A DNA stretch of 64,000 bases from Rhodococcus rhodnii NBRC 100604 (GTDB lineage: Bacteria; Actinomycetota; Actinomycetes; Mycobacteriales; Mycobacteriaceae), in contig NZ_BCXD01000001.1 of the NCBI RefSeq assembly GCF_001894925.1, positions 124,001 through 188,000 of the forward strand, given 5' to 3'. Made by a program: the position numbers and the translations under genes. The notes under the pieces were generated by a model that saw only the letters and a list, made by a program, of their open reading frames with translations, had not been told where the DNA came from and did no database searches. Of the stretch, positions 29 through 44,541 are shown piece after piece (the stretch's first letter is position 1; each line of letters opens with the position of its first letter).

Positions 29-931
29 ATGAGACGACCGCTCGCGACAGCAACTGCGGCCGTGCTCGGTTCGGCGCTCCTGGCGGCGTGCGCGCCGTCG
101 TCGGCAGCACCTGATCCCGATGCCGAGAAGAGCAGCGCCGACGCCCCCGTGGTCAGCGCCGGCGGAGTCCCCGTCCCCCGCGGCGACCTGCGCGGCTGGC
201 ACCAGATCTTCACCGACGAGTTCGACCGAGCGGAACTCGGCGACAGGTGGGGTACGTACGAGGGAACGCCCGGGGGCAATCCGCATTCGTGGTGGGACCC
301 GTCGATGGTCACGCTGTCCGACGGAGCGCTGCGCCTCGGCGCCGAGCGCGTCGACGGCCGGTGGATCACCGGCGGCGTCTCCAACTATCCCGTGACACAG
401 CGCTACGGGCGCTGGGAGATCAGGATGCGCGCGGACCGCAGCGAGGCGATCTCGTACCACATGCTGCTGTGGCCGCAGGACGAGAACTGGCCGCCCGAAA
501 TCGATTTCGCGGAGTCGGTGAGCCCGGATCGCACCGAGACGACGGCCTTCCTGCACTGGGTGGACGAGAACGGCGAGAACGACAAGGACGACGCCGAGAT
601 CACCGGCCGCTTCGACGAGTGGCACACCATCGGTGTCGAGTGGCTGCCCGGCCTCGTCCGCTACCTGCTCGACGGCGAGGTGTGGGCGGAGGCACGCGGC
701 GACGACATCGTGCCGGACGTCCCGATGTGGCTCGGGCTGCAGGCCGAGGCCGGTGCGTGCGAGCGGCGCCTCGACTGGGGCCTCACGCCCTGCAGCGGGT
801 CCCCGGATCCTGCGGCACCCGTCGTCGAGATCGACTGGGTCACCGTCTACGCGCCGATCGAATCCGAACTGCGCGAGATGGAGTCCGAGGGGCTGTTCGA
901 GCCGGCACCGGACGCCGCGCCGATCGGCTGA
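29..931 (+). CDS. Secreted GH16-family glycoside hydrolase lipoprotein
   Basis: Probable beta-glucanase/galactanase-type hydrolase anchored outside the cell membrane. The N-terminus has Arg residues, a hydrophobic stretch and a lipobox (LLAAC, Cys about residue 21), so signal peptidase II processing is expected. The catalytic signature of family 16, ExDxxE, is present as EIDFAE with Glu157, Asp159 and Glu162, and the flanking YGRWEIRMR and WLPGLVRYLLDG segments are typical of the jelly-roll fold. At 300 aa it is a single-domain member. The true substrate cannot be read from sequence. The adjoining flippase and glycosyltransferase suggest a surface polysaccharide context. Its last 85 bases overlap the 3' end of the convergent flippase gene. 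Confidence 0.85.
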   Translation: MRRPLATATAAVLGSALLAACAPSSAAPDPDAEKSSADAPVVSAGGVPVPRGDLRGWHQIFTDEFDRAELGDRWGTYEGTPGGNPHSWWDPSMVTLSDGALRLGAERVDGRWITGGVSNYPVTQRYGRWEIRMRADRSEAISYHMLLWPQDENWPPEIDFAESVSPDRTETTAFLHWVDENGENDKDDAEITGRFDEWHTIGVEWLPGLVRYLLDGEVWAEARGDDIVPDVPMWLGLQAEAGACERRLDWGLTPCSGSPDPAAPVVEIDWVTVYAPIESELREMESEGLFEPAPDAAPIG

Positions 932-2181
932 GCCGCCGACCGCAGCATTCGCCTGAGCGGGACGACGAGCACGACCGCCGCGAGCGCCTCGGCCACGACG
1001 TAAGACCAGCCGATCGCCCGAATCCCGTGCTCCGGCAGGAACAGTGCACTACCACCCAGCACGACGACGGCGACGAGCAGCTGCACGCCGACGGCGAGCC
1101 GGAGACGACGCGTGACACGGGCGAGTGCGTTGTAGACGAGCGCGACGATCGCGAGCGGGAACGCCCACGCGACGATGCGCAGCAGCGGCACGCCCTCCTC
1201 CTGGTAGGCGGGGTCGAGCAGGCCGAGCAGCATCGGTGCGATCCCGGCGCACCCGAGCACGCCCGCGACAGCGACGGCGCCGAGAATCGTGACGTACCGG
1301 CGGGTCTCACGGCGGATCGCCGGTGCGCGCTCGGCCTCGGGTGCCGACACCACCGACGCGACGAACGGGCCGGTCAGCATCGTCATGAGAACCAGCACCG
1401 CGGACACGAGCGACCAGCAGATCGCGAAATACGCGTTGGCCTCCGCGCCGAGGGTCGCGATCACGACGATCGGCAGGACGAGCGGCGCGATCGCGCCGAC
1501 GACGTAGATGCCGTACGACGCCGCGAGAAAGCCTCGCATCTCGCGGCGCGGCGGCAACGTCACGGGCCCGTCGCGGTACTCCGTCCCCACGCGCCGCGCC
1601 ACCACGACTGCGAGAACGACGGCGCACCCGGCCGCGAGAAGCAGCCACGTCCAGACCATTCCGGCGCGCGACGCCGTGAACGCGAACGCGACGAGAGCCA
1701 CGAGCTTCGCGACGGAGTGGACGATGTTCTTCGTCGCCGCCCACCCGGCCTCGCGCAGGCCGACGACGGTGTGATCGAGCAGCGCGAACCCCGACAGGAT
1801 CGCCACGGCGAGCGGGAACAGCGCGGCGTCGAGCGGCCCGGTGAACATCTCGTCGGCCGGCCCGACCACGACGAATCCTGCGCCGAGCACCGCCCCGCAC
1901 AAGGCGCCGACCGTGAAACCGCGCGTCAGCATCGCGCGGGCACGCGCCCCCGCCTCGGGGAGGAAGCGCTCGAAAAGCGCGCCGAGCGAGAGATTTCCGA
2001 AGGCCGCGAGCATCGTCGCCGTCGTGATGACGGCCGACGCCGCACCGACCTCACGCGCGGGATAGAGCCGTGCCGCGAGCAGCCAGTACAGCAGTCCCGT
2101 GACGCCGGTGACGGCCGCGGAGACCGTCAGCGCGAGGCTGTTGCGCGAGAGGCTCTTCCCGCTCGCGGTGCGCTCAGGCAC
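847..2181 (-). CDS. Wzx-like polysaccharide flippase (membrane transporter)
   Basis: A very hydrophobic 444-residue protein with roughly a dozen membrane segments, resembling oligosaccharide flippases of the MATE/MOP superfamily (RfbX/Wzx). Such proteins move lipid-linked sugars across the cytoplasmic membrane. The motif around AARLYPAREVG and NLSLGALFERFLPEAG is repeated almost exactly in the second flippase at 13426-14739, so the two are paralogues. The start is GTG and overlaps the end of the upstream glycosyltransferase by 8 bases, which indicates co-translation. The Ser-rich C-terminal tail lies in the part that overlaps the GH16 gene and may be dispensable. Substrate unknown. Confidence 0.8.
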   Translation of the reverse strand: MPERTASGKSLSRNSLALTVSAAVTGVTGLLYWLLAARLYPAREVGAASAVITTATMLAAFGNLSLGALFERFLPEAGARARAMLTRGFTVGALCGAVLGAGFVVVGPADEMFTGPLDAALFPLAVAILSGFALLDHTVVGLREAGWAATKNIVHSVAKLVALVAFAFTASRAGMVWTWLLLAAGCAVVLAVVVARRVGTEYRDGPVTLPPRREMRGFLAASYGIYVVGAIAPLVLPIVVIATLGAEANAYFAICWSLVSAVLVLMTMLTGPFVASVVSAPEAERAPAIRRETRRYVTILGAVAVAGVLGCAGIAPMLLGLLDPAYQEEGVPLLRIVAWAFPLAIVALVYNALARVTRRLRLAVGVQLLVAVVVLGGSALFLPEHGIRAIGWSYVVAEALAAVVLVVPLRRMLRSAAQPIGAASGAGSNSPSDSISRSSDSIGA

Positions 2182-3028
2182 TCAGTTCGCGGATGTCCGC
2201 ACGCTGCGACTGTTTACGGATGTCGCGGGTGGCGCGCCAGTGACGCCACTCCTGACCGATGGTGCGCAGCACCCGCATTCCGTCGCTGTACGCGTTGAGA
2301 TTGCTGCGGCCGTGGATGCGGGGCCCCTCGAAGCTGCCCACCTCGACGATCTCGAGGCCGCTCGTCGCGAGCCGCACGTTGATGACGGTCTCGATCTCGA
2401 AGCCGTCGCCCCACTGCGCGCGGGAGTACTCCGGGGGCGCGAGTTCGAGGACCGGCACGTGCCGGCGCCAGAACGCGTTGTAGCCGTAGCAGAGGTCCGA
2501 GAAGTGGGTCCGGAACACGAGGTTGACGAGTCCGTTGAGCCCCTTGTTGCCGACGGACCGCAGCACGGTGATGTCGCTGCTGCCACCGGGAGCGACGAAT
2601 CGGCTCCCCTTCGCGAGATCCGCGCCGCCCACGAGCGCCTCGACGAACCGCGGGATCTCGCCCGGATCGGTCGACCCGTCGGCGTCGATCATGACGATGA
2701 TGTCGCTCGTGGCGGCGGCGAAACCGCACGCCAGCGCGTTGCCCTTGCCCCGGCGCGTCTGCGTCACGAAGGTCGCGGTGGGCCACAGCTCTCGCGCGAC
2801 GGCCATCGTGTCGTCCGTGGAATTGCCGTCGACGAACACGATCTGATCGACGCCGTCGGGCATCCGCGCCGCGACGAACGGCAGGTTGCGGGCCTCGTTC
2901 ATCGCCGGGATCACGACGGTGACGGTCGGGCGGTGGGGACCGTTGCCCGAGTCGACCGCCGCCGGCGGGACGACGGGGACGTCGGGAGTGGCGGTGGCGG
3001 GCGGGTCGATCGGCGATGGCGCGGTCAC
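2174..3028 (-). CDS. Family 2 glycosyltransferase (DPM1/GtrB-like)
   Basis: A GT-A fold transferase that would pass a nucleotide-activated sugar to a lipid or sugar acceptor. The nucleotide-binding beginning (VTVVIPAMNEA), FVDGNSTDDT, and the metal-binding DADGS with DPGEIP are all present, as in dolichol/polyprenyl-phosphate sugar synthases. No C-terminal membrane segments are visible. I chose the GTG at 3028, about 54 codons inside the longest reading frame, because GGAG lies 5 bases upstream and the extra N-terminus has no family resemblance. It is the first gene of a two-gene minus-strand unit with the flippase. Its promoter region is shared with the divergent aryl operon and contains an IdeR box at 3205-3223. 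Confidence 0.82.
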   Translation of the reverse strand: MTAPSPIDPPATATPDVPVVPPAAVDSGNGPHRPTVTVVIPAMNEARNLPFVAARMPDGVDQIVFVDGNSTDDTMAVARELWPTATFVTQTRRGKGNALACGFAAATSDIIVMIDADGSTDPGEIPRFVEALVGGADLAKGSRFVAPGGSSDITVLRSVGNKGLNGLVNLVFRTHFSDLCYGYNAFWRRHVPVLELAPPEYSRAQWGDGFEIETVINVRLATSGLEIVEVGSFEGPRIHGRSNLNAYSDGMRVLRTIGQEWRHWRATRDIRKQSQRADIRELSA

Positions 3029-3204: not shown

Positions 3205-3223
3205 TGAGCTGAGCCTAACCTCA
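3205..3223 (+). promoter_or_regulatory. IdeR/DtxR iron box upstream of the aryl operon
   Basis: The 19-mer TGAGCTGAGCCTAACCTCA matches the mycobacterial IdeR consensus TTAGGTTAGGCTAACCTAA at 15 positions (counting S at position 10), with an intact right half. It sits just downstream of a plausible -10 element, TATGAT at 3190-3195. Iron-loaded repressor would therefore block transcription of the hydroxylase gene starting at 3282. The divergent glycosyltransferase starts 177 bases away on the other strand and could also be affected. This is an inference from sequence only. Confidence 0.65.
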
Positions 3224-3281
3224 TCGATGCGCTACAGTTCGTCGCGTTCCGAAATTCGACATCTCTCGTTCGAGGTCACAC

Positions 3282-4469
3282 GTGCGCACCCAGGTAGCCA
3301 TCGTCGGGGCCGGCCCTGCCGGTCTCGTTCTCGCGCGCATGCTCGAACTCCAGGGAATCGATTCCGTCGTCCTCGAATCGCGTTCGCGCGAGTATGTCGA
3401 GAAGCGCACGCGCGCCGGAATACTCGAACAGCCCACCGTCGACGTCGTCCACGAACTCGGTATCGGCGACCGTCTCGCGGCGGAGGGCATGGCCCACGAC
3501 GGTTTCCACCTCCGCTTCGATCGCACCACCCACCGCTTCGACTTCCACTCGCTCGTCGGCGGCCACGCGACCGTGTATCCGCAGCAGAAACTCGTCGCCG
3601 ATCTGATCGCGGCGCGCGTCTCGTCGGGCCTGCCGATCCTGTTCGGCGCCTTCGTCAAGGGAATCGACACCGCGACCGGACGCGTCACCTACGAACGCGA
3701 CGGACACGTCCACGAGCTCGACGCCGACATCGTCGCGGGCTGCGACGGCTTCCACGGCGTCGCGCGCACCGCGATCCCCACCGCGCTGCGCCGCGATCGT
3801 TCGCGGTCGTACCCGTTCTCGTGGCTCGGGATCCTCGCGAACAGCACTCCCGTCTCCGACGAGGGCATGTACTGCGCGCACGAGAACGGACTGTCGGTGC
3901 ACAGCATGCGCGGGCCTGCCGTGACGCGGCAGTACCTCCAGGTCCCCGAAGGAACCGACCTCGCCGACTGGCCGGACGACCGCATCTGGGACGAGCTCGC
4001 CGTCCGCAGCGAGTCCCACGACGGCGCGCCGCTCGACCGCGGCGAGATCGTCGACCGCTCACTCGCTCCCCTGCGATCGTTCGTGTCGGAGACCATGTCG
4101 CACGAGCGGCTGTTCCTGCTCGGCGACGCCGCCCACATCGTGCCCCCGACCGGCGCGAAGGGACTCAACCTCGCGGTGTCCGACGCCGCCGTCCTCTCGC
4201 ACGCCCTGGGCCGCTGGTTCGCGACCGGTGCCCGCGACGCACTGGACGCGTACGCCGCGACGTGCCTCCCCCGGATCTGGGCGGCGCAACTGTTCTCGTG
4301 GACGCTCACGACCACCCTCCACCGCATGTCGGACGACCCGCTGGACGCCCGGCTGCGCTTCGCACGCCTGCGCCGATGGGTCGAGTCCGAAGCCGAGCGC
4401 ACCGCGCTCGGCGAGGTCTACCTCGGCCTGCCGTTCCCTTCTCGATGGAGTCACCGATGGAACCACTGA
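3282..4469 (+). CDS. PobA-type FAD-dependent aromatic hydroxylase (p-hydroxybenzoate hydroxylase family)
   Basis: A class A flavoprotein monooxygenase of 395 aa, the usual length for 4-hydroxybenzoate 3-monooxygenase. The FAD-binding GAGPAG lies at residues 9-14, the DG motif (AGCDGFHG) near residue 155 and the second FAD motif GDAAHIVPPTGAKG near residues 280-294. The family reaction is NAD(P)H- and O2-dependent hydroxylation ortho to a phenolic OH. It starts at GTG with GAGG 6 bases upstream, so the N-terminus is well fixed. Catabolic pobA normally sits with protocatechuate genes. Here it leads an operon with GriI/GriH-like genes, so 3-amino-4-hydroxybenzoate is as likely a substrate as 4-hydroxybenzoate. 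The next gene overlaps its end by 13 bases. An IdeR box lies upstream. Confidence 0.85.
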   Translation: MRTQVAIVGAGPAGLVLARMLELQGIDSVVLESRSREYVEKRTRAGILEQPTVDVVHELGIGDRLAAEGMAHDGFHLRFDRTTHRFDFHSLVGGHATVYPQQKLVADLIAARVSSGLPILFGAFVKGIDTATGRVTYERDGHVHELDADIVAGCDGFHGVARTAIPTALRRDRSRSYPFSWLGILANSTPVSDEGMYCAHENGLSVHSMRGPAVTRQYLQVPEGTDLADWPDDRIWDELAVRSESHDGAPLDRGEIVDRSLAPLRSFVSETMSHERLFLLGDAAHIVPPTGAKGLNLAVSDAAVLSHALGRWFATGARDALDAYAATCLPRIWAAQLFSWTLTTTLHRMSDDPLDARLRFARLRRWVESEAERTALGEVYLGLPFPSRWSHRWNH

Positions 4470-5305
4470 CGTTCCCGAGCCCGTCCGGCATGCGTCACAG
4501 CACCGGTAAGCGAATTCGATTCTCGCGCATCACCGATCCGGTGACGGGACACATGTTCATCGTGCCGATGGACCACTCCGTGACGCTCGGCCCGCTCGGG
4601 CCCGCATCCCACACGGCGTCGTTCGTGCGGCTGCTCGCCGACGCGGGCGCCGGCGCCGTCGTGCTGCACCGTGGCCGCGTTCGGCATGTCGATCCCGCCG
4701 TGTTCGCGAGTCTCGGTCTCGTCGTGCATCTCTCCGCCGGTACCGAACTGAGCCTGGATCGCGACGCGAAGGTCCTCGTCTCCGGTGTCGACGATGCGAT
4801 GCGGCTCGGCGCCGACGCCGTCAGCGTCCACGTCAACGTCGGCTCGGACACCGAAGCGCGACAACTCGCCGACTTCGCCGCCGTCTCCCGCGAATGCGAG
4901 ACGGTCGGGATGCCGCTGCTCGCCATGATGTACGCGCGAGGGCGGGAGCGGCCCGCACCCACGCCGTCGGGCGACATCGCCCATCTCGCGTCGATCGCGA
5001 CCGACCTCGGTGCGGACATCGTCAAGGTCGACTACCCGGGTTCGCCCGAGGCCCTCGCCGCCGTCGCCGCGACCTGCCCGATCCCGCTCTGTGTCGCGGG
5101 CGGCGGTCGGCTCGCGGCCGACGACGACGTCGTCGACTTCGCGCGCACCCTCCTCGCCTCCGGCGCCGGGGGACTGTGCTTCGGCCGCAACGTCTTCGAG
5201 GCCGCCGATCCCCTCGCCGTCGCCACGGGCCTCGCCCGGCTCGTCCGCGGCGACGCCGAACCGCACGCCGTGCGACCGGCGCACCCCCAGCTCGAACTCG
5301 CGTAG
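4457..5305 (+). CDS. DhnA/FbaB-family class I aldolase, GriI-like (2-amino-3,7-dideoxyheptulosonate synthase type)
   Basis: A TIM-barrel class I aldolase of 282 aa related to archaeal ADH synthase (MJ0400) and Streptomyces GriI. The substrate-binding Asp is in VPMDHSVTLGP and the Schiff-base Lys is in DIVKVDYPG (about residue 191). In grixazone biosynthesis GriI joins aspartate-4-semialdehyde to a triose phosphate to give the precursor of 3-amino-4-hydroxybenzoate. In archaea the homologue starts an alternative route to dehydroquinate. I chose the ATG at 4457 because GGAG lies 6 bases upstream; another in-frame ATG 12 bases earlier lacks a binding site. The pairing with the next gene, as in griI-griH, favours aryl acid biosynthesis. 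Confidence 0.8.
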   Translation: MEPLTFPSPSGMRHSTGKRIRFSRITDPVTGHMFIVPMDHSVTLGPLGPASHTASFVRLLADAGAGAVVLHRGRVRHVDPAVFASLGLVVHLSAGTELSLDRDAKVLVSGVDDAMRLGADAVSVHVNVGSDTEARQLADFAAVSRECETVGMPLLAMMYARGRERPAPTPSGDIAHLASIATDLGADIVKVDYPGSPEALAAVAATCPIPLCVAGGGRLAADDDVVDFARTLLASGAGGLCFGRNVFEAADPLAVATGLARLVRGDAEPHAVRPAHPQLELA

Positions 5306-5319
5306 AACTCACCTTCGCG

Positions 5320-6525
5320 ATGTCCGTCTCCACAGAAAGAACATCCCCGGCCATGCCCGAGACCACCACGATCGTCACCGACCGGATCACGCCACTGACC
5401 GCCGCGGCTCCCGCGAGCCGCGAGGGCCACTTCGCGTGGCTCGACCTCCGCGGGATCGGTGCGGACGCACTCGCCCCCATCGTGCAGGCCGCGCTGCACC
5501 ACCGCATCGACGGGCTGCTGTCCGACGATCCTGCCGTCTTCGAGGGCCTGCCCCCGACGGTGCGCCGCATCCTCGTCCTCGACGAGCCCGCGGTCGACGG
5601 GTTCCCGTACGACGACGTCGATCTCGTCGTCGTGAACGATCGCGCTCACCTCACGTCGCCGCACGTCGGACACACCCCGGACCGCGGCGTCCACGTCGTC
5701 GTCTCCGACGCCCCGACCCTCCAGGAGGCGTGCGAGGTCGTCCGCGAGGTGCCGTGGACGCTGCTGACCTTCACCGATCCCACCAAGATTCCGCTCGAGA
5801 TCGTCATCGCCGCGGCCGAGAACAGCGGCGGGCGCACCGTCACGACGGTCACCGACGTCGAGGACGCCGGCATCGTCAAGCTCGTCCTCGAACACGGCTC
5901 CGACGGACTGCTGCTCGCACCGCGCTCGGCCGACGACGTCGTCAAGGTCGCGCGCATCGTCGAGCACGAGGCCGAGAAGCTCGAACTGTGCGAACTCGTC
6001 GTCGACGCCATCGAGCACATCGGCATCGGCGATCGCGCGTGCATCGACACGTGCTCACTGCTCGACAAGGACGAAGGCTGCCTCGTCGGCTCGTTCTCGA
6101 CGGGTATGTTCCTCTCGTGCAGCGAGACCCATCCGCTGCCGTACATGCCGACCCGCCCGTTCCGATGGAACGCCGCGGCCGTCCACTCGTACGTCCTCGG
6201 GCCCGAGAACCGCACGCGCTACGTCAGCGAACTGAAGGCCGGCTTTCCGATCCTCGCCGTGCGCTCGGACGGCAGCGTCCGCGAGGTGCGCATCGGCCGA
6301 GTCAAGATCGAGAAGCGCCCCCTGCTGTCGATCAACGCGACGACGCCCGACGGCCGGTCGATCAACGTCATCACGCAGGACGACTGGCACGTGCGGCTGC
6401 TCGGCCCCGGCGGCAGCGTCAACAACGTCACCGAACTCCGCAAGGGCGACCGGCTGCTCGGCTACGTCCCCCGCGAGGCGCGGCACGTCGGGCTGCCGAT
6501 CACCGAGTTCTGCGACGAGCGCTGA
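5320..6525 (+). CDS. 3-Dehydroquinate synthase II family protein, GriH-like
   Basis: About 400 aa, similar to archaeal dehydroquinate synthase II (MJ1249) and to GriH, which forms 3-amino-4-hydroxybenzoate from the aldolase product. Recognisable family features are the N-terminal WLDLR segment, the DACID-like region IGIGDRACIDTCSLL, the GCLVGSFSTGMFL loop and the C-terminal RPLLSINATT and VKIEKRPLL segments. These enzymes are rare in bacteria, which normally use the unrelated AroB. Together with the preceding aldolase this makes a two-gene pathway independent of chorismate. The start is uncertain: ATG 5320 and ATG 5353 are in frame and neither has a strong binding site. Which of the two known activities applies cannot be decided from sequence. 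Confidence 0.8.
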   Translation: MSVSTERTSPAMPETTTIVTDRITPLTAAAPASREGHFAWLDLRGIGADALAPIVQAALHHRIDGLLSDDPAVFEGLPPTVRRILVLDEPAVDGFPYDDVDLVVVNDRAHLTSPHVGHTPDRGVHVVVSDAPTLQEACEVVREVPWTLLTFTDPTKIPLEIVIAAAENSGGRTVTTVTDVEDAGIVKLVLEHGSDGLLLAPRSADDVVKVARIVEHEAEKLELCELVVDAIEHIGIGDRACIDTCSLLDKDEGCLVGSFSTGMFLSCSETHPLPYMPTRPFRWNAAAVHSYVLGPENRTRYVSELKAGFPILAVRSDGSVREVRIGRVKIEKRPLLSINATTPDGRSINVITQDDWHVRLLGPGGSVNNVTELRKGDRLLGYVPREARHVGLPITEFCDER

Positions 6526-6547
6526 CGTACCGGCCGCGAGCGACACG

Positions 6548-7663
6548 ATGAGCACACCCGACGTCCTCTGGTACATCGGCACGAACGACGGTCCCGCGCC
6601 GTGGGATCCGGCGGCGCGGGACGAGCCGTCGTTCGCCGCCGTCCGCGAGCAGGCGCGCGTCCTCGACCGGCTCGGTTTCCACGGCGCCCTCACGACGGCG
6701 CGCGAGGCGATCGCGCTCGTCGGCGAGACCACCCAGCTGCGCTTCGTCGTACCCGAGTACCCCGGAGTCAAGCCGCCCGCCCTGCTCGCCGAGCAGGCGC
6801 AGGTCTTCGACCACTACTCCGGTGGGCGGCTGATCTTCAATCAGGTCAACGGCGCCGACCCGGTACTCGCGCGGTACGGGCAGTTCCACGACAAGAACAC
6901 CCGGTACGAGCGTTCGGTCGAGTACTGGACCCGGGTGCGCGAGCTGTATCTCGACGAGACCGCCGCGTGGGACGGCGAGCACTTCGCGTACGGCCCCCGC
7001 TACAAGCCGGCGATCCCTGGGCCGCGGCAGCCCGGCGGCGTCCCGATCTGGGGCACGGGCGCTTCACCCGCCGGGATCGCCCACGCCGCGGCGGTCCTCG
7101 ACGCCTACCTCATGTTCATGGCACCGGTACCCGACATGGACGCCGTGTTCTCCAAGGTCCGCAAGGCATGCGCCGAGACCGGCCGCGAGATGCGGTTCGG
7201 CGCGCTCGCGAGCGTCGTCGTCCGCGAGACCGACGACGAGGCGTGGGACTACTTCGAGTCGCAACTCGCCCGGACGAGCCCCGAATCGGTGCTCGCGACG
7301 GCGGACCGCAACCTCCGCAGTTTCGGGTTCGATCCGCTGGCAACGCTGACGTCGCACGACGCTCAGGTGCAGGCGCGGATCGACGCGCTGCGCAGCGGAC
7401 GGCTGCCGACTCGCAGCGAACTCGAGTTCGCCCCGAACACGGCGGCAGGCCTGACGACGTGGTCCGGCGCCGAGCCGCCGTTCGACATCGCGGGCAAGGG
7501 AACCGGCAACTACTTCGTCGGCAGTGCCGAGAACGTCGCCGCCAGGATGAACGCGATGGCGGCCGAACTGGGCATCGACATCTGGATCCTGTCCGGGTGG
7601 CCGCTGATCGACGAGGCGCGCACGACGGCGTCACTGCTGCTGCCCAGGCTCACCGGGCAGTGA
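6548..7663 (+). CDS. Luciferase-like flavin-dependent monooxygenase (SsuD type)
   Basis: A 371-residue member of the bacterial luciferase/alkanesulfonate monooxygenase superfamily, which uses reduced FMN from a partner reductase. Family features are the N-terminal WYIGTNDG strand, LTTAREAIA, the LLAEQAQVFDHYSGGRLIFNQV helix-turn, WDGEHFAYGP and the phosphate-binding IWGTGASPAG. No reductase gene is adjacent. In this operon it may oxidise the amino group or ring of an aryl intermediate, for example amine to hydroxylamine or nitroso, but that is only an inference from position. A sulfonate-desulfurising role is the usual alternative for SsuD-like proteins; no sulfur-uptake genes are nearby. Its stop overlaps the GTG start of the next gene. 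Confidence 0.78.
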   Translation: MSTPDVLWYIGTNDGPAPWDPAARDEPSFAAVREQARVLDRLGFHGALTTAREAIALVGETTQLRFVVPEYPGVKPPALLAEQAQVFDHYSGGRLIFNQVNGADPVLARYGQFHDKNTRYERSVEYWTRVRELYLDETAAWDGEHFAYGPRYKPAIPGPRQPGGVPIWGTGASPAGIAHAAAVLDAYLMFMAPVPDMDAVFSKVRKACAETGREMRFGALASVVVRETDDEAWDYFESQLARTSPESVLATADRNLRSFGFDPLATLTSHDAQVQARIDALRSGRLPTRSELEFAPNTAAGLTTWSGAEPPFDIAGKGTGNYFVGSAENVAARMNAMAAELGIDIWILSGWPLIDEARTTASLLLPRLTGQ

Positions 7664-10143
7664 CCGCTCCCGTCACGCGCGTGCCCGTGCCGGGCGAGTC
7701 GATCCGTGAGCGGCTCTACGAGATCGCCGCCGCCGCCCCCGATCGGATCGCGATCGTGTGCGGCGGCGAGCGGATCACGTTCGGGCGGCTCGTCGCGACG
7801 GCGACGGCCTCGGCCCGTGGTCTCGTTGCTCTGGGAACCGCGCCGGTCGCCCTCGACACGGTGTGCTCGCTCGACTGCGTCCGTGCCGTCGTCACGATCC
7901 TGATCTCGGGCCGCCCGCTCGTACTGCTCGACTCGCAGCTTCCCGAGGATCGCCGCACAGCGATCGTCGATCTGTCCGGTGCGCAGCGACTCTCGCCCGA
8001 GGCCGTCGTGGCGCTGTCCGGCCGCAAGCCACTGCGACCGCTGTCGCGCGCCGACACCGCCGTGCTTCTCTTCACCTCGGGCTCCACCGGAACCCCCAAG
8101 GCCGTGCGTCACGGACAACGCCTGTGGCTCGGGCAGGCCGTCGATTTCGCACATCACCTGGATGTCGGGCCGGAGGACCGGATCGGTTCCGCACTGCCGA
8201 TCGGATTCGGCGGCGGCATGGACGTCGTCGTGATGGCCTTGCTGAACGGTGCTGCGCTGCACTGGTACGACCCGCGTGAGATCGGGCGCGACGGCATCGA
8301 GGAGTGGGTGCGGTCGAACGACCTCACGACGCTGCATGCCACTCCGTCGCTGCTGCGGTCGATCGTCGCGTCGTGGTCGGCGGAAGCGGCGCCGCGCACG
8401 CTGCGCCTCGTGACGACGTGCGGCGAGGCCGTCCACTCCGCGGACGTCGCCTCGGCACGCGCGCGTCTCGGCGACGGGTTCGCGTACTGCAATCTGTCGG
8501 GATCGTCGGAGACCGGGAACCTCGCGTTCGCGATGGTCGGCTCCGGGGCCGAGGTGCCCGAGCGGATACCCGCCGGGGTTCCGGGCGTGAACAAGGTCGT
8601 CCGCATCGACTCGCCCGATGCGTCCGGCGCGGGTGAGATCGTCGTGGAGTCCGAGTTCGTCGCCGAGGGATACGTGCTCGGCGACGGCACCCGTTTCGAG
8701 CCGGTCGACGAGCGCGTGCGCCGGTATCGCACCGGCGATCTGGGACGATTCGACGCCGACGGCAGACTCAACCTACTGGGACGCATGGACGGCGCGGTGA
8801 AGGTCCGCGGCTATCTCGTCGAGCCCTCCGAGATCGAAGCGGCGGCGCTGCGAGCACCGGGTGTGAGCGAGGCAGTCGTGATCGCGCAGCGCACGGACGC
8901 AGGTGCGGTGGTCGCGGCCTTCGTCAGCGGTCCCGGTGCACGCGAGGTCGCCGCGATCCGTCGGCACCTCGCCCTCGCCCTCCCGTCGTGGATGCTGCCG
9001 ACGCACGTCGTGCCGATGACGTCGCTGCCGCGCACCGAACGCGGCAAGGTCGATCGCGCGAATCTCGTCGTGCCGGCGGAGCGGCCGCCGTTCGCTGCCG
9101 CGCGGCCGGGCGTCGAACTCGCCGCTGCGGAGGCGTGGCGGCGCGAGCTCGGAGTGGCGATCGGGCGCGACGAGGATCCGTTCGCACTCGGTGGCACGTC
9201 GCTCGGACTCGTCCGCGTGCTCGCACGGATCGAGGCCGAGACCGGGCGGGCTCTCGGTGTTCACGACGTCGTCGCGGACGCGAGCCCGGCCGGAATCGCA
9301 GGTGCAGCGGGTTCTGCTGCGCCCGAGGCGCTTCCGGCGTCGGCGACGCGACTCGGCGGCGACGCCGGCCCCGTCGTGTGGGCCTTCTGCGGTGCGGGTG
9401 CGGATCCGTCGTGCTTCGCCGATTTGGCGCGCGCATACGACGGCACGGTGTACGCGCTCGCCCAACACGGGCTGGAACGGCGCGGGGTCCCCGATTGGAC
9501 GGTCGCGGCGATGGTCCGCCGCCACTTGCGGACGATGCGCGCCGTCCAGCCGCAGGGGCCGTACCGTCTCGTCGGGCATTCGCTCGGCGGGATTCTGGCG
9601 ATCGAGGTCGCACGCGCGTTGCGGGCGGAGGGACACGACGTCGCGGCGCTCACGGTGCTCGACACGCTGCTGCCGCCGGGCGCACGACCCGTGGGCACGG
9701 GAACGACACCGGTGTCCGGGCCCGCGATCGCCGCTCCCCCGCTCGTGGAGCGAGTGCGGGTGCACGCCCGCGTGTACACGGCGGGAGTGATCCGGCGCGA
9801 GCACGCTCTGCAGGAGAAGGTGTTCTGGGAGCAGGGGGTTCGCGTCGGCGCTCGGTGGCGTCCGCGTCCCTTGGACGTTCCGGCCCGAGTGGTGATTGCA
9901 GCCGACAACCCCGACGATCCGCAGTGGTGGCGCCGGATACTCACCGGGCCACTCGACATCGACCGTGTCGCCGGCGACCACCACGCCGTCCTCCACGCAC
10001 CCACGATTCACACCGTGGCGCGCGCTAGGGCGCGGCTGAGCGACCCGTTACCGACCGCGTTCACGCGACGACCGAACCGCGCGGCGAGGGTGGCCGTGCA
10101 TCCGGTGGTTCGAAGCGGGGTCTGCCGCGTGGGACCGGGATGA
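7660..10143 (+). CDS. NRPS-like mini-synthetase: adenylation-PCP-thioesterase
   Basis: An 827-residue, three-domain protein. The A domain (about 20-490) has the A3 loop FTSGSTGTPK near residue 135. The carrier domain has LGGTSL with Ser514 for phosphopantetheine. The type I thioesterase has GHSLGG with nucleophile Ser641 and GDHHA near residue 774. In the substrate pocket the FDxS element reads FGGG, so the Asp that holds an alpha-amino group is missing, as in aryl-acid or hydroxy-acid activating domains. No condensation domain is present. It should load one acid and release it by hydrolysis, self-esterification or transfer. The GTG start is fixed by a GTGA overlap with the monooxygenase gene. 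The last 83 bases overlap the convergent HNH gene. Confidence 0.85.
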   Translation: MTAPVTRVPVPGESIRERLYEIAAAAPDRIAIVCGGERITFGRLVATATASARGLVALGTAPVALDTVCSLDCVRAVVTILISGRPLVLLDSQLPEDRRTAIVDLSGAQRLSPEAVVALSGRKPLRPLSRADTAVLLFTSGSTGTPKAVRHGQRLWLGQAVDFAHHLDVGPEDRIGSALPIGFGGGMDVVVMALLNGAALHWYDPREIGRDGIEEWVRSNDLTTLHATPSLLRSIVASWSAEAAPRTLRLVTTCGEAVHSADVASARARLGDGFAYCNLSGSSETGNLAFAMVGSGAEVPERIPAGVPGVNKVVRIDSPDASGAGEIVVESEFVAEGYVLGDGTRFEPVDERVRRYRTGDLGRFDADGRLNLLGRMDGAVKVRGYLVEPSEIEAAALRAPGVSEAVVIAQRTDAGAVVAAFVSGPGAREVAAIRRHLALALPSWMLPTHVVPMTSLPRTERGKVDRANLVVPAERPPFAAARPGVELAAAEAWRRELGVAIGRDEDPFALGGTSLGLVRVLARIEAETGRALGVHDVVADASPAGIAGAAGSAAPEALPASATRLGGDAGPVVWAFCGAGADPSCFADLARAYDGTVYALAQHGLERRGVPDWTVAAMVRRHLRTMRAVQPQGPYRLVGHSLGGILAIEVARALRAEGHDVAALTVLDTLLPPGARPVGTGTTPVSGPAIAAPPLVERVRVHARVYTAGVIRREHALQEKVFWEQGVRVGARWRPRPLDVPARVVIAADNPDDPQWWRRILTGPLDIDRVAGDHHAVLHAPTIHTVARARARLSDPLPTAFTRRPNRAARVAVHPVVRSGVCRVGPG

Positions 10144-11344
10144 TGCTCCATCCGCTGTGGTGGATGTGCCGGTGATGCTTACCGCAGAGCAGCACGGTGT
10201 TGTCGAGGTCGGTCGGTCCGCCGTCCGCCCAATGCTCTATGTGGTGAGCCTCGCACCAAGCCGGTGGCGCAGTGCAATTCGGGAACGCGCATCCCCGGTC
10301 GCGGACCGTCAATGCCCGGCGCTGGGCCGGGGTGACGAGCCGCGTGGTGCGGCCCATCGACAGTGGCACACCGTTGTCGTCGACGATCACCGGCGTCACC
10401 CGTGCATCGCACGCCACCGCCCGCGCGGTCTCCGGCGAGAGTGTGCCGCCCCACGGCATCCAGGGCAACGGGATCCCGTCCAGCAGGGCCGTCACCGATA
10501 CGGACGTCCGTTCGTCGCGACCGTCGGGCTGCTTCGCGAGGTCACGCTGGTGGACGATGACGGTCACATGGGGTTTCTCGGCAGCTTCGTGCCCGTTCTC
10601 GCCGGCATCGAGGTGACGTCTGCAGATCTCGACCAGCCCGTCCGCACGTCGCTGCCCGGCAGAGCGGCGATCACGGCTGCCGTCGTCGGCCGGGCGTGGC
10701 GCGGACAGCTTCGAGAGGGCGGTCGACAGGATTTCCCCGGAGAGGGCGTCGAGGTCGCCGTGGAGCACCACCCTGCCGTTGAGGGTGTTCGAAACGGTCA
10801 GCGTGTTCAGATCCTCACGCTCGCGAGTCGTCGGCCCCTCGGTGTCGACATCCAGCCGCGCCCGCAGCGTCTCGATCGCCGTCCGCACCGACTTCGTGGA
10901 GGTTTCCGGCCCCGGCGCCGCAGCAGCCAACAGTGCAGCGCGGCACGCCGCGATCACTGCCGCATGCTCGTCCGGGTCGGTCTCTGCCAAAGCCTTCACC
11001 GCTGACGGTGGTTTGTCGAAGAACGCGCACAGCATGCTCGCGTGCCGCGGCGAGATCCGTTGTTCGGCAACGGCCGCAGCGATCTCCGGCTCGGTCCGTA
11101 AACCCGTCCCCAACGCCGCCACATCCCGTGCCTCGCCGATCTCGAGCATCGTGTGCGCCGCAAGCCACGACCCGCCGTCGCGATACCCCGCTGCGGTCGC
11201 GAGACCGCGCTCGACGACTTCTCCCATCAACGTGACGCGCCGCGCCTGCAACACCTGGATATGCCGCGAGATGTCGAGCACCGCGGCCGACAGCTCGGCA
11301 TCACCGAGCTGCCATGCCTGCGTCTGTGTTTCTCCCGCCCCCAT
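10061..11344 (-). CDS. DUF222/HNH endonuclease-domain protein (13E12-like)
   Basis: A 427-residue member of the abundant actinobacterial DUF222-HNH family. An N-terminal helical DUF222 region is followed by an HNH nuclease domain: RDRGCAFPNC, CEAHHIEHW and the terminal CGKHHRHIHH carry the zinc- and metal-binding Cys and His. These genes occur in many copies per genome and have no settled biological role. The ATG at 11344 was chosen over a longer frame because AGGA lies 8 bases upstream. A distant paralogue lies at 53284-54573. It is transcribed towards the aryl operon and overlaps its 3' end. Confidence 0.85.
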   Translation of the reverse strand: MGAGETQTQAWQLGDAELSAAVLDISRHIQVLQARRVTLMGEVVERGLATAAGYRDGGSWLAAHTMLEIGEARDVAALGTGLRTEPEIAAAVAEQRISPRHASMLCAFFDKPPSAVKALAETDPDEHAAVIAACRAALLAAAAPGPETSTKSVRTAIETLRARLDVDTEGPTTREREDLNTLTVSNTLNGRVVLHGDLDALSGEILSTALSKLSAPRPADDGSRDRRSAGQRRADGLVEICRRHLDAGENGHEAAEKPHVTVIVHQRDLAKQPDGRDERTSVSVTALLDGIPLPWMPWGGTLSPETARAVACDARVTPVIVDDNGVPLSMGRTTRLVTPAQRRALTVRDRGCAFPNCTAPPAWCEAHHIEHWADGGPTDLDNTVLLCGKHHRHIHHSGWSIIPVPRGRPRFEPPDARPPSPRGSVVA

Positions 11345-11443
11345 GCGTCTGATCCTAGTCGAACGTCCTTGCGATGCACGCAGTGTTTTCCCAGCTGGGG
11401 ATAGTTCTGGAGCTGTGGACAACTCGGTGTCGACGGCCGTGGG

Positions 11444-12550: not shown

Positions 12551-13429
12551 CTAGCTGCGGAACGCCCGAGCCGACGACGCCTCGACCACCTTGCGAGCGG
12601 TGAACCGTGCCATCTCGCGGCTCGGGACGCTGCGGACCGCGACCGTCGCGGCGCGGGTCGCCGCCACGGTGCGCCGAATTCGACTGTCACCCGGTGCCCA
12701 CAGGAGGTCGCCGTACTGCGGCGCCGCGAGAGGGCGGACTCCCCGCTCGCGCGCGTAGCGCTGCGCGATACGTACGTGCGTACGGCGCTGCTCGCCGGCG
12801 TAGCGCGCACTCACCTGCGCGTCGTGCACCCGATAGCGGTAGCCGGCGATCGGGAGGTTTCCGAGCCGTCCGACGGCGGCGAGGCGCGTCCACATGTCGT
12901 AGTCCTCGGCGTGCCGCGCCTCGGGATCGAATCGGATTCCACTCTCCCGCAGCGCCTCCGCTCTGAGCATCACCGACGGGCCGCAGTGGCAGCTCGCGAC
13001 GGTGAGCCGGTCTCGGCACGCCGAATCCGTCACGGGCATTCGAATCCGCCCGGACTCGCGCCCGTCGGGGAGGACGAGGGTGTAGTCGGTTCCGACACAC
13101 ACGAGTTCGGGGTCGGCCATCATCGCCGCGAGTTGCGCCTCGATACGCCCGGGCACGAACCAGTCGTCGGCGTCCATCCGTGCGACGAACTCACCGCGTG
13201 CGAGGTCGAGACCACGGTTCAGGGTCGCGACGAGCCCGCGATTCTCCTGCCGCACGAGCCGCACACGTGGGTCACCGAAGCTCTCGACGACGGCGGCACC
13301 GTCGTCGGTCGAGCCGTCGTCGACGACGAGGATCTCGGTCTCCCCCGCGGTCGCGGACAGCACAGACCCCAGTGCTTCCTCGACGTGGGCACCTGCGTCG
13401 AACATCGGAATCAGGACGGTGACCTTCAT
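12551..13429 (-). CDS. Family 2 glycosyltransferase
   Basis: A 292-residue GT-A enzyme. It begins with the standard VTVLIPMFDAG strand, has ILVVDDGSTDDG for nucleotide binding, DADDW as the metal-binding DXD, and HAEDYDMWTR as the catalytic ED motif. It probably adds a sugar to an envelope or secreted glycan. The ATG at 13429 overlaps the stop of the upstream flippase gene (ATGA), so it is translated with it. Last gene of the minus-strand polysaccharide unit. Confidence 0.85.
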   Translation of the reverse strand: MKVTVLIPMFDAGAHVEEALGSVLSATAGETEILVVDDGSTDDGAAVVESFGDPRVRLVRQENRGLVATLNRGLDLARGEFVARMDADDWFVPGRIEAQLAAMMADPELVCVGTDYTLVLPDGRESGRIRMPVTDSACRDRLTVASCHCGPSVMLRAEALRESGIRFDPEARHAEDYDMWTRLAAVGRLGNLPIAGYRYRVHDAQVSARYAGEQRRTHVRIAQRYARERGVRPLAAPQYGDLLWAPGDSRIRRTVAATRAATVAVRSVPSREMARFTARKVVEASSARAFRS

Positions 13430-14739
13430 GCGGACACCTGTCGCAGATCGCGGCGCACGATGCGCCACAACGGAACCGCGACGGCGAGTGCCACCGCCAC
13501 CTCGACGGCCACGAAGGCGTAGCCGATGCCGTCGATCCCGACCCGGGGGACGGCGATCAGCGATCCGGTGATGACGCCCGTGGTGGCCACGATCTGGACG
13601 AGTACCGCCCATCGCAGCGTGCGGTGGACCCGGCACAGCACCCCGAACACGGTCCCCGGCACGGCCAGCAGCGCGACGACGGCCATGAGCCGCACGAGCG
13701 TCGCCCCGTGCTCGGCGTAGGTCGGGCCGACGATCCACAGTGCGATCGGCCCGCCGAGCGCGAGCGCGGCAGCCGCTGCGAGCGCGACGATCCCGTACAT
13801 CCGCAGGAACCTGCGCAGCAGGTGGCCGAGCCGCTCGGGACTCGCGGCAGCCGCCGACACGAACGGCGCCGTGACCATCCCGGTCGCGAGCATGATCGCC
13901 GCGACCAGCGTCCACACGACGGAGAAGTAGGCCGTCTCCTCGTGCCCGGCGGAGACCACGACGACGAGCGGCAGCACGAGCGGCGTCGCGGCAGCGACGA
14001 CCGTGATGCCGTAGGCGCCACCGAAGTACGAGAGCAGCGCACGCCGGTCGGGCAGGCGCGGCGGCGCGTCCCGCAGACCGCGGCCCAGCAGCGTGACGAC
14101 GAGTTGAACCACGATCACCGCAGCCGCCGCCGGCACGAGCCACGCGACGATCATCGACGGTGCCCCCGCCATCGGCGTCGCGAGACCGAGTGCGAGCACC
14201 GCCACGAGTTTGGCGACGGCGTGCCAGATGTTCTTCGCCGCAGCCCATCTGCCGGCCTGCAGGCCCACGAGCAACGAGTCGGAGAGCGCGAACGCGGCGA
14301 GCACGGCGACGACGACCGGGAAGAGCAACTGACCGCGGAGCGTCTCGAACAGCCGGTCGCTCGGGCCGATCACGACGAACACCGCACCGAGCACGAGTGC
14401 GGCCGCCGTCGTGAGCACCTGGCCCTGCACGACGCGTCTGCGCCCGAGCACACCGGCCTCGGGAAGGAACCGCTCGTACATCGGCCCGAGGCTCAGGTTC
14501 GCGAGCGTCGCGAGCATGACGGCGGTGTTCACGACGGCACCCGCGCGACCGACCTCGGCATCGGGGTACAGCCGCGCGGCGACCGCCCAGAACACCAGGC
14601 CCAGCGCGCCGTTGACGAGTCCCGCGACGACGAGGGCGGCCGAGTTGAATTCGAGGCTGCGAGGATCGAGCCGGCGAGGAGAGAGGCGGCGGCGCGGTGG
14701 GACGGCTGCCGCGGGGGCGTCTCCGTTCACGAGTGTCAT
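13426..14739 (-). CDS. Wzx-like polysaccharide flippase (second paralogue)
   Basis: A 437-residue, polytopic membrane protein of the oligosaccharide flippase family. It shares the AARLYPDAEVGRAGAVVNTA and NLSLGPMYERFLPEAG segments with the flippase at 847-2181, so one arose from the other or both from a recent common gene. Starts by ATGA overlap with the upstream glycosyltransferase and ends by ATGA overlap with the downstream one. This strict coupling implies one glycan pathway using GT, flippase and GT. Cargo not predictable. Confidence 0.8.
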   Translation of the reverse strand: MTLVNGDAPAAAVPPRRRLSPRRLDPRSLEFNSAALVVAGLVNGALGLVFWAVAARLYPDAEVGRAGAVVNTAVMLATLANLSLGPMYERFLPEAGVLGRRRVVQGQVLTTAAALVLGAVFVVIGPSDRLFETLRGQLLFPVVVAVLAAFALSDSLLVGLQAGRWAAAKNIWHAVAKLVAVLALGLATPMAGAPSMIVAWLVPAAAAVIVVQLVVTLLGRGLRDAPPRLPDRRALLSYFGGAYGITVVAAATPLVLPLVVVVSAGHEETAYFSVVWTLVAAIMLATGMVTAPFVSAAAASPERLGHLLRRFLRMYGIVALAAAAALALGGPIALWIVGPTYAEHGATLVRLMAVVALLAVPGTVFGVLCRVHRTLRWAVLVQIVATTGVITGSLIAVPRVGIDGIGYAFVAVEVAVALAVAVPLWRIVRRDLRQVSA

Positions 14740-15719
14740 CGGAATCTCAGCACCGCCGAGTAGGCGGACGGCGCGACCGAGACGAGCGCTCCGAACACGG
14801 CCTCCCGGACGTGTCCCGTGCGCGCGAGGGCGGGCAGCTCGGCCCAGTCGATGCGATCCCGAACCCGCGTGATCGCCGTGCGGTAGAGGTCGCGGGGAGC
14901 CGTCGCGGCGTGATCGGCACGCATCGCGACGTGCGCGATCGACGTCAGCACCTCGCGGTAGACGAATCCCCGCAGATCGTCGGCCCACTCACCGGCGAGC
15001 CCGGCCGCCGCCACGGCGTCGGCGACGTCGGCGCCGACGGCGAACAGATCCAGCGTGCGCTCCGAGAGCGTCGTGGTGATCGACCCGGACCGCAGCAGAT
15101 AGCTGTAGAGCGGGTCGTCGACGAGGGCGACCAGGCCGCTCGCGAGGGCGATGCGGAACGTCGCGGCGATGTCCTCGTAGTGCCGCCCCTCGTCCCACGG
15201 CCGCTCCCCGAGCGCGCTGCGGCGGAAGAGCTTGGTGCACGGATACGCCTTCGCCCCGCCGCGCAGCAGCAGTCGCGCGAACTCGGGGCCGGTCGTGATC
15301 GCGGCGGGATACGTCGGCTCGTCGATGCCGAGCACCGCGCCGTCCCCATCGAGACGCTGCGTCCGGCATGCGGCGAGATCGGCGCCGGAATCGCGCAGCG
15401 CCGCCGCGAGCGTCGCGACGAAGTGCGGGTCGGCGGTGTCGTCGGCGTCGAGGAACCACACGAGCTCACCGGTCGACGCGGCGAGCCCGGTGTTGCGGGC
15501 GGTGCCGGGACCGAGGTTCGTCGCATGGGTGACCGCCGTGAACGGGGCCCCGCGCGCCGAGAGAAAAGCTGTCGCCGTGCGCATCGAATCGTCGTCGCCG
15601 CGGTCGTCGACGAGGACGATCTCGTGGACGGGATGCGTCTGCGCGAGAACCGACGCGAGCGCGGCCTCGACGTACGGTTCGCACCGGTGGACCGGCACGA
15701 CGACGCTGACAGTGGACAC
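14736..15719 (-). CDS. Family 2 glycosyltransferase
   Basis: A GT2 enzyme with VSVVVPVHRCEPYVEA at the N-terminus, EIVLVDDRGDDDS for nucleotide binding and the metal-binding motif FLDADD near residue 85. About 327 aa from the GTG at 15719. An in-frame ATG at 15746 would add nine residues but has no visible binding site. The upstream endonuclease-family gene ends inside the same stretch, so the two genes nearly touch. An iron-box-like sequence lies right at the start. Acceptor unknown. Confidence 0.83.
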   Translation of the reverse strand: MSTVSVVVPVHRCEPYVEAALASVLAQTHPVHEIVLVDDRGDDDSMRTATAFLSARGAPFTAVTHATNLGPGTARNTGLAASTGELVWFLDADDTADPHFVATLAAALRDSGADLAACRTQRLDGDGAVLGIDEPTYPAAITTGPEFARLLLRGGAKAYPCTKLFRRSALGERPWDEGRHYEDIAATFRIALASGLVALVDDPLYSYLLRSGSITTTLSERTLDLFAVGADVADAVAAAGLAGEWADDLRGFVYREVLTSIAHVAMRADHAATAPRDLYRTAITRVRDRIDWAELPALARTGHVREAVFGALVSVAPSAYSAVLRFR

Positions 15720-15720
15720 G

Positions 15721-15739
15721 AGTAGTGAGGGTAACCTAA
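15721..15739 (-). promoter_or_regulatory. Weak IdeR-box-like sequence at the start of the glycosyltransferase gene
   Basis: Read on the minus strand the sequence TTAGGTTACCCTCACTACT has a perfect left half (TTAGGTTA) of the IdeR consensus but a poor right half, about 13 of 19 matches overall. It overlaps the stop codon of the upstream gene. It could be an internal iron-responsive site for the polysaccharide genes, or chance. Confidence 0.3.
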
Positions 15740-16713
15740 CCCGCATCGAAGGTGGGGGTCACGGTCACGAGCAGCCCCGCATGGTCCGATCCGGCGACGG
15801 ACACCCGCTCGAACGACGACACCGCGGTGTCCCGCACGACGACGTGATCGATCCCGACCAGCGCCGGAATGCGCGAGTCCGTCGGGTACGTGGGAACGAA
15901 CCCGGCCCCCGAGAGATCGGCGGCGTCCCGGTACCCGTCCGTGAGCAGCGCGCGGTAGCGCGTGTGCGACCACGTCGAGTTGAAGTCGCCGCACACGACG
16001 ACAGGCGCGCCATCGGCTGCGAACCCGGTGAGCACGTCGCCGATCCGCTCCATCTCGCCGGCCCAGCGCCACGCGGGCTCGGGGAACGGCGGCAGGGGAT
16101 GCAGCGCGGCGACGGCGACCTCGCGACCGTCGACGTCGAGTCGCGCGGTGACGTTCGCCATCGCGAAACCGCGTGCCACCTCGCCGTCGGTGACCGGATA
16201 CCGGCTGTAGATCCCGGTGCCGCCGCCCGAGCCGTCCTCCTTGGGTGCGGTGAACCGGTACGGCAACAGGTCTCCGATGCCCGCGGCGTCGAGCCGCTCG
16301 ACGGAGCCGAACGTCAGCTCCTGCACGGTGACGAGGTCGACGTCGCGCTCCGCGATCATCCGGACGAGCGCGTCCGGATCGGCCTCGCCGAGCCGAATGT
16401 TCGTCTGCAGCAGGGTCAGCGGAGCACCCGCGACGCGTCCCGCGCCCGGCTGGTCGCCGTCCGCGACGTACAGCGGGGCGTACGTCGCCACACCGACGAT
16501 CGCGACGAGCGACGCCACCGCGGCGAGCACCCACGAACGCGCGGCGAGCAGCAGGAGGGCGCCCACGACGCCGACCAGGACGAGCCACGGAACGAACGAC
16601 GCGATCCTGATGAGCCGGTCGCTCACCGGCCCGACGAAGTGCACGCCGACCCCGACCGCACCCACGAGCGAGGCGAGCAGCCCGAGTGCCACGACCACGT
16701 ACCGAACTCTCAC
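15736..16713 (-). CDS. Endonuclease/exonuclease/phosphatase-family membrane protein
   Basis: About 325 aa. Three membrane segments in the first 100 residues are followed by an extracytoplasmic EEP-fold domain: LLQTNIRLGEAD, VTVQELT (metal-binding Glu), GDFNST (Asp and Asn of the active site) and GSDHAGL (catalytic His). Actinobacteria have several such proteins, with no firm substrate; a secreted phosphodiesterase or phosphatase is likely. The GTG at 16713 lies 34 bases after the exporter gene, so it may be co-transcribed with the siderophore operon. The binding site is weak. Confidence 0.78.
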   Translation of the reverse strand: MRVRYVVVALGLLASLVGAVGVGVHFVGPVSDRLIRIASFVPWLVLVGVVGALLLLAARSWVLAAVASLVAIVGVATYAPLYVADGDQPGAGRVAGAPLTLLQTNIRLGEADPDALVRMIAERDVDLVTVQELTFGSVERLDAAGIGDLLPYRFTAPKEDGSGGGTGIYSRYPVTDGEVARGFAMANVTARLDVDGREVAVAALHPLPPFPEPAWRWAGEMERIGDVLTGFAADGAPVVVCGDFNSTWSHTRYRALLTDGYRDAADLSGAGFVPTYPTDSRIPALVGIDHVVVRDTAVSSFERVSVAGSDHAGLLVTVTPTFDAG

Positions 16714-44522: not shown

Positions 44523-44541
44523 TGAGCATAGGCTACCCTCA
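44523..44541 (-). promoter_or_regulatory. IdeR/DtxR iron box between dhbA and dhbE
   Basis: The plus-strand 19-mer TGAGCATAGGCTACCCTCA keeps the core TAGGCTA of the IdeR consensus and matches 14 of 19 positions. It sits between the divergent dhbA and dhbE genes, at the very start of dhbA, so it can repress both. It supports joint iron control with the NRPS genes. Confidence 0.6.

Follow-up and report, generated by a model that had tools for sequence, protein, structure and literature searches.

GriI and GriH convert aspartate semialdehyde and a triose phosphate to 3-amino-4-hydroxybenzoate (AHBA). In grixazone biosynthesis these two enzymes build the benzene ring out of C3 and C4 metabolites (as cited in PMC10466732), and the platensimycin genes ptmB1-B2-B3 are reported to make 3-amino-2,4-dihydroxybenzoate (PMC6006322). 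Here we describe a five-gene operon of Rhodococcus rhodnii NBRC 100604 that encodes members of the GriI and GriH families, located in a 64,000-nucleotide stretch (contig NZ_BCXD01000001.1, positions 124,001 to 188,000) that we refer to as the window and whose coordinates are used throughout; related loci and genomes are cited by our L and G numbers. The operon usually sits inside an iron-boxed glycan locus containing genes for glycosyltransferases, a GH16-family protein, flippase-like proteins and condensation-fold proteins, a feature newly recognised here.

The operon occupies coordinates 3282–10143 and all five genes are on the plus strand. The first (3282–4469) codes for a PobA-like FAD hydroxylase of the 4-hydroxybenzoate 3-monooxygenase subfamily PRK08243 (506 bits, cut-off 351). 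It is followed by a GriI/MJ0400-type DhnA aldolase (4457–5305; ADH-synthase subfamily PRK07226, 271 bits, cut-off 241), a predicted GriH-type AHBA synthase (5320–6525, with a start perhaps at 5353; DHQS-II subfamily PRK02290.1-3, 483 bits, cut-off 375), a luciferase-family monooxygenase (6548–7663; Bac_luciferase, SsuD-like), and a synthetase with adenylation, peptidyl carrier and thioesterase domains (A-PCP-TE, 7660–10143; AMP-binding, PP-binding and Thioesterase matches). The pobA-like and aldolase genes overlap by 13 bp, the gap between the aldolase and griH genes is 14 or 47 bp depending on which griH start is used (5320 or 5353), a 22 bp gap precedes the luciferase-like gene, and this overlaps the A-PCP-TE gene by 4 bp. 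An earlier note on this DNA had described five co-directional genes with tight junctions behind a 15/19 IdeR box, all of which we confirm at these positions; its boundaries are sound for the operon genes but cut off the glycan genes on both flanks.

The DhnA-type aldolase gene of the window adjoins a DHQS-II gene of the GriH type rather than the archaeal type. An alignment with MJ0400 covers almost the whole aldolase, and the Asp-His, Tyr and Lys residues that we take to be catalytic line up. The GriH protein scores 417.5 bits with the BagC/FevH model of the bagremycin and ferroverdin (bag/fev) pathways, as against 239 bits or less with the DHQ-synthase-II equivalog models, and the aldolase scores 233 bits with the BagB/FevI model; the proteins thus belong to the same two families as those of bag/fev, but fall under the exception cut-offs of 750 and 500 bits, respectively. 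From this family membership we infer that the pair carries out chorismate-independent synthesis of AHBA, which upholds the GriI/GriH-type route suggested in the earlier note.

GriH relatives with 63–83 percent identity are present in Rhodococcus, Gordonia and mycobacteria, and of 401 genomes sampled across the family, 23 gave a DHQS-II match. Merging the relatives search and the family draw by coordinates gives 28 griH genomes, and the operon is therefore not a curiosity of one species; 27 of these were examined, with G092 left out, and the neighbour counts given below as fractions of 27 cover the sequence stretches around the loci rather than whole genomes. A search for plasmid-borne GriH relatives found none among 13 hits at 60 percent identity or more. 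At one mycobacterial locus (L216:5410–7464) GriH and a GT2 glycosyltransferase domain are joined, and the same genome has a second, separate griH.

A 15/19 match to the 19-letter IdeR consensus lies at coordinates 3205–3223 (no strand assigned) between a divergent GT2 gene and pobA. Sites of at least 15/19 occur at only two other places in the window, at 31139 and 41583, each preceding a large nonribosomal peptide synthetase (NRPS) gene, and ten windows generated with a first-order Markov model average 0.2 sites of 13/19 and have no site of 14/19 or better. In 25 of the 27 griH genomes, a box of at least 14/19 is present no more than 350 bp upstream of pobA or griI, and in the two exceptions (L010 and L011) a 16/19 box precedes a GT2 gene on the same strand that leads into pobA. 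Such a box is present at none of 61 other griI/griH loci, nearly all from other actinobacteria; these were drawn from the best 80 of 396 loci and include one metagenome-assembled genome titled Corynebacteriales (L037). Stretches chosen at random from the same loci, which contain real boxes too, had a box in 308 of 4000 draws; since draws that fell on three short loci were passed over, the actual frequency is about 8–9 percent. Because the box recurs in front of orthologous genes in related genomes, a chance match is unlikely, and together with the Markov control this led us to reject that explanation. Boxes of at least 14/19 also lie within 250 bp of the GT2 gene (19 of 24 loci), a c3-type glycosyltransferase gene (7 of 22) and the flippase-like gene (6 of 26). 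We infer from the boxes in the window and in the orthologous promoters that the operon is probably subject to IdeR iron repression, which supports the iron control proposed earlier. Two weaker IdeR-like sites are present, one (44523–44541, 14/19) beside an entA/entE-like gene pair and the other (15726–15744, 13/19) beside GT2 and phosphatase-like genes.

The operon PobA is distinct from ordinary PobA proteins. In a tree, 24 operon-type proteins form a clade (support 100/100) that excludes the Pseudomonas enzyme and 13 further PobA paralogues, and position 199 is glycine in all 24 and leucine in all 13; the window genome itself codes for a further paralogue with Leu199. It is the tree and Gly199 that set the operon PobA apart, and not its score with the PobA equivalog TIGR02360 (418.7 bits, cut-off 538.7), as three other actinobacterial paralogues likewise fall short of the cut-off (409, 464 and 389 bits), so that missing it does not mark out an enzyme of another kind. 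Operon-type PobA genes (59–70 percent identity) were found in all 19 griH relatives searched and in none of nine genomes with an A-PCP-TE gene but no griH, one of which (G245) carries a PobA gene of the non-operon type (L226); griH was not found in these nine with a query that did match in the wider relatives search.

Position 199 lies within 4 Å of 4-aminobenzoate in a PobA homology model (PMC10466732), and changes at this position together with Tyr385 are reported to let PobA hydroxylate 3,4-dihydroxybenzoate, with a natural protocatechuate hydroxylase carrying Val199 (PMC10770758, PMC9063093). The operon enzyme resembles that hydroxylase (XaPobA) and the PaPobA L199V/Y385F variant in having a changed residue 199 with the carboxylate-binding residues kept, but has Gly199, Tyr201 and Tyr385 where XaPobA has Val199, Trp201 and Phe385; the operon-type proteins retain Tyr201, Ser212, Arg214, Tyr222, Pro293, Thr294 and Tyr385, with Ser212, Arg214 and Tyr222 accompanying Gly199 in all 24. 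AHBA is a candidate substrate because the carboxylate-binding residues are kept and Leu is replaced by Gly at a site where changes admit 3-substituted substrates, and the enzyme is predicted to hydroxylate it at C5, ortho to the 4-hydroxyl. The aryl acid is thus likely a hydroxylated AHBA such as 3-amino-4,5-dihydroxybenzoate, and the PobA clade and active-site residues support an aminocatechol as the likely monomer, as had been suggested.

Further modification is suggested by two other genes. Eight of the 27 stretches have a gene for an arylamine N-acetyltransferase (NAT) next to pobA or griI; NAT-type enzymes are reported to acylate the AHBA amine in known pathways, including the NAT-family PtmC of platensimycin (PMC11213898). 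The luciferase-like gene is present in 19 of the 27 stretches, and the product of the window gene scores far below the SsuD cut-off (166 bits, cut-off 510).

Each of these enzyme families is already known, and the locus can be compared with several described systems. The platensimycin ptm cluster, compared here at the level of enzyme families, also uses three genes for a hydroxylated AHBA; no ketolide genes were seen here, and instead there are iron boxes, an A-PCP-TE gene and glycan genes. Grixazone shares the two-enzyme route, but no tyrosinase-type oxidase was found here, and the operon has iron boxes and other genes downstream. The same oxidase type is absent in comparison with bag/fev, and control is expected at low rather than high iron. 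Iron-boxed NRPS and dihydroxybenzoate-type genes like those of the Rhodococcus NRPS siderophores (heterobactin, rhodochelin, rhequichelin and rhequibactin) adjoin the operon. The earlier note did not recognise the gene combination from a described pathway; ptmB1-B2-B3 provides a precedent for part of it, but nowhere in the literature searched, which was mostly non-subscription, did we meet hydroxylated-AHBA genes accompanied by a glycan module, an A-PCP-TE and IdeR boxes together. The same literature gave no iron-boxed hydroxylated-AHBA pathway in Rhodococcus, Gordonia or mycobacteria and nothing on polymer-bound catechol siderophores, and was unproductive for iron-regulated glycan loci in Gordonia; the main text of a 2017 Rhodococcus survey (PMC5550956) has no occurrence of '3-amino', 'aminohydroxybenz', 'globerulus' or 'triatomae'.

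The A-PCP-TE protein of the window has no condensation domain, and its carrier-domain Ser and thioesterase Ser/Asp/His residues are present. Its A domain has Gly at the alpha-amino-binding position 235, confirming that the Asp expected for amino acids is lacking, and this position is Gly, Ala or Ser in all 69 aligned homologues (13 of which repeat others); the numbering was set by core motifs rather than by structural alignment. All 27 griH genomes have an A-PCP-TE homologue, of either the glycan or the NRPS-associated type. In several mycobacteria the A-PCP-TE and a flippase-like protein are in a single reading frame (L008, L016 and L023, and by gene calls L203, L204, L214 and L216), and in Gordonia L010, L011 and L013 their genes overlap; gene calls in the relatives came from a crude codon-usage caller and the starts are rough. 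The second, NRPS-associated clade adjoins NRPS, GT2 and ABC-transporter-like genes with IdeR boxes nearby (L161:9838–12372, L162:9180–11675, L207:8794–11340 and L219:8296–10788), and is also present in genomes without griH, e.g. G383 (L207). The tree behind this division is a quick one: 7 of its 11 'near NRPS' rows (including L190) were labelled by A-domain residues with their surroundings unread, 7 of 13 'other' rows were also labelled without reading the surroundings, and the 'glycan without griH' group takes in L210, where there is only a weak GH16 match nearby. More distant homologues occur at L206, L208, L209, L212 and L213, with no 14/19 IdeR box in the 20 kb read.

Glycan genes flank the operon on both sides. 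To the left are genes for a GH16-family protein with a lipoprotein-like start by reading (29–931, plus strand; family match), a flippase-like membrane protein with 11 hydrophobic segments (847–2181, minus strand) and a GT2 glycosyltransferase (2174–3028, minus strand, with the longest frame starting at 3190; family match). To the right, all on the minus strand, are genes for a GT2 glycosyltransferase (12551–13429; family match on a longer frame to 14248), a second flippase-like protein identified by hydropathy and lacking a Pfam match (13426–14739), another GT2 glycosyltransferase (14736–15719; family match) and an endonuclease/exonuclease/phosphatase-family protein with an N-terminal membrane segment that is a frequent companion (15736–16698). 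The GT2 and GH16 assignments are clear, and counterparts of the 2174–3028 GT2 gene are present in 21 of the 27 stretches and the endonuclease/exonuclease/phosphatase family in 16. The module also includes a protein of condensation-superfamily fold (c11) and a GT-C-like protein with 14 transmembrane segments. The latter was found in 14 of the 23 griH genomes of the family draw, as against 12 of the remaining 378 (Fisher p = 2e-13, uncorrected for relatedness), and 13 of the 14 matches of at least 650 bits are in griH genomes. Two candidates were scored per genome in this survey and in the corresponding one for A-PCP-TE, also uncorrected for relatedness; in a search scoring up to 52 candidates L010 fell below the threshold and yet carries the gene, so misses occur. 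A sequence search of the PDB with GriH and the c11 and GT-C-like families yielded nothing useful. Between the operon and the second glycan block lies a DUF222 gene (10061–11422) that is antisense to the A-PCP-TE gene, overlaps its end and has no match in the nine related stretches compared.

Taken together, these features suggest the following scheme. At low iron, IdeR would release the operon, the aldolase and GriH-type synthase would make AHBA from aspartate semialdehyde and triose phosphate, and the PobA-like enzyme would add a hydroxyl next to the 4-hydroxyl, to judge from its active site most likely giving 3-amino-4,5-dihydroxybenzoate, which the luciferase-like enzyme, and in some relatives the NAT, would modify further. 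The A-PCP-TE would activate the acid and keep it as a thioester, the TE domain or the condensation-fold protein would transfer the acyl group to a sugar, either in a lipid-linked glycan or in a glycosylated siderophore, and the flippase-like protein would carry the acylated product out of the cell. The outcome would be a glycoconjugate with aryl groups that binds iron on the cell surface or close to it. We favour the view that the A-PCP-TE takes up the aryl acid and hands it on to a glycan or a glycosylated siderophore, which is plausible from its domains and neighbours, with a likelihood somewhat short of even. Our more specific and tentative proposal, which on balance we rate as rather unlikely in its full form, is an iron-repressed glycan (a surface polymer, glycolipid or oligosaccharide) with aminocatechol groups attached by a flippase-coupled A-PCP-TE, and thus a new class of iron scavenger. 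In that case the glycan-and-loading module would form a constant core, with the AHBA supply genes as an exchangeable part; the glycan/A-PCP-TE module occurs without AHBA genes as well, and no aryl-acid genes were seen near these griH-less modules by query homology and reading, with most of their genes unscanned by the family library. If true, this would be an undescribed iron-response pathway scattered over Rhodococcus, Gordonia and mycobacterial species, in which the rare GriI/GriH route replaces chorismate and a PobA variant has a new candidate substrate. It would also tie aryl-acid loading to glycan export, link siderophore chemistry to cell-surface polysaccharide, and provide a source of aminocatechol building blocks.

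Several points weigh against an aminocatechol-bearing glycan. We know of no tested case of acyl transfer to a sugar by this kind of A-PCP-TE. At E ≤1e-60, A-PCP-TE genes of either type are present in all 23 griH genomes but also in 69 of 378 others, so AHBA cannot be the only substrate of the family. The Rhodococcus type (GGDHTCLNLK) and the flippase-fused type (e.g. GANxITWAIK) both occur with griH and have different A-domain residues, which do not point to a single shared substrate; nor does the pocket give a clear split between griH-bearing and griH-less glycan-type members. The flippase assignment is based on hydropathy, the window protein having no family match itself, and on one homologue (L005:15852–17147) that matches Polysacc_synt just under the cut-off. 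The c11 protein is present in only 10 of the 27 stretches, and glycan-module genes were not seen in the stretches of L012, L014, L020, G231 and G179, whose whole genomes were not searched. L020, G231 (L190) and G179 (L219) carry an A-PCP-TE of the NRPS-associated clade, the only type identified there; a glycan-type A-PCP-TE of G231 or G179 may have been missed with two candidates scored per genome, and GT2-type genes do adjoin the A-PCP-TE in L020 and G179. Lastly, PtmB3, the nearest functional analogue of the operon PobA, contributes to a 2-hydroxyl product, and because ptmB1-B2-B3 give the 2,4-dihydroxy isomer the hydroxylation site is uncertain and may differ from C5.

In Rhodococcus, moreover, the whole block abuts an NRPS cluster, continuing in the window, G025, G017 and G003 into genes for EntS, a binding protein and two large NRPSs (19059–31106 and 31183–41529, each behind an IdeR box). 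The aryl unit could be joined to the neighbouring siderophore, either as the second aryl cap raised in the earlier note or through TE release in trans, with the glycan genes serving a separate task. Neither NRPS has a Pfam thioesterase match at E 1e-8, and the 19059–31106 protein ends in a carrier domain by motif; transfer to the NRPS peptide remains a live rival because the block adjoins a cluster without a thioesterase match. Gordonia sihwensis L020 provides further support, with griH, LLM, pobA, NAT and griI lying between NRPS genes and an NRPS-clade A-PCP-TE; across L020:8250–20924 the AHBA genes are spread among NRPS, ABC transporter, GT2, A-PCP-TE and esterase genes. However, the NRPS cluster already has its own dihydroxybenzoate-type dehydrogenase (287 bits, curated cut-off 312) and adenylate synthase (673 bits, curated cut-off 724), both just under the cut-offs. 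Outside Rhodococcus, L020 is also alone among the griH loci with annotated neighbours in having an NRPS within the 10-kb flanks, and the missing condensation domain of the A-PCP-TE does not favour peptide joining, which we regard as improbable.

A small free chelator or pigment, exported as an aminocatechol, an N-acyl derivative, or a TE-released dimer or ester, is a slimmer prospect still. It fits L012 and L014, where pobA, griI and griH are preceded by a 15/19 box and follow an MFS transporter gene, and the A-PCP-TE is elsewhere behind its own 15/19 box, and it is in keeping with fungal single-module adenylation-thiolation-thioesterase (A-T-TE) enzymes, which couple aryl acids. It leaves unexplained the fusion of A-PCP-TE to the flippase-like protein and the iron boxes on glycosyltransferase genes.

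The o-nitrosophenol chelator of ferroverdin or viridomycin type raised in the earlier note, for which GriI/GriH-type genes and iron boxes could be cited, is disfavoured and very improbable: the tyrosinase family has no match in four Rhodococcus genomes (that of the window and three others) but matches in all three Streptomyces controls, o-aminophenol oxidases are described as type-III copper enzymes (PMC12982950), and ferroverdin is reported to be made at high iron and to need excess iron (PMC6692506). The family names (DHQ synthase II, 4-hydroxybenzoate 3-monooxygenase) might suggest that the aldolase/synthase pair supplies the shikimate pathway with 3-dehydroquinate and that PobA serves ordinary protocatechuate catabolism. 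This is scarcely credible, since the same genome has a classical DHQ synthase and the Leu199 PobA paralogue, GriH-type models give much higher scores than the DHQS-II equivalogs, and the genes are iron-boxed.

The siderophore block also includes a gene for an aspartate 1-decarboxylase, PanD (42618–43049; 164 bits, cut-off 106), which is kept at 77–79 percent in G025 and G017 and may feed beta-alanine to the NRPS.

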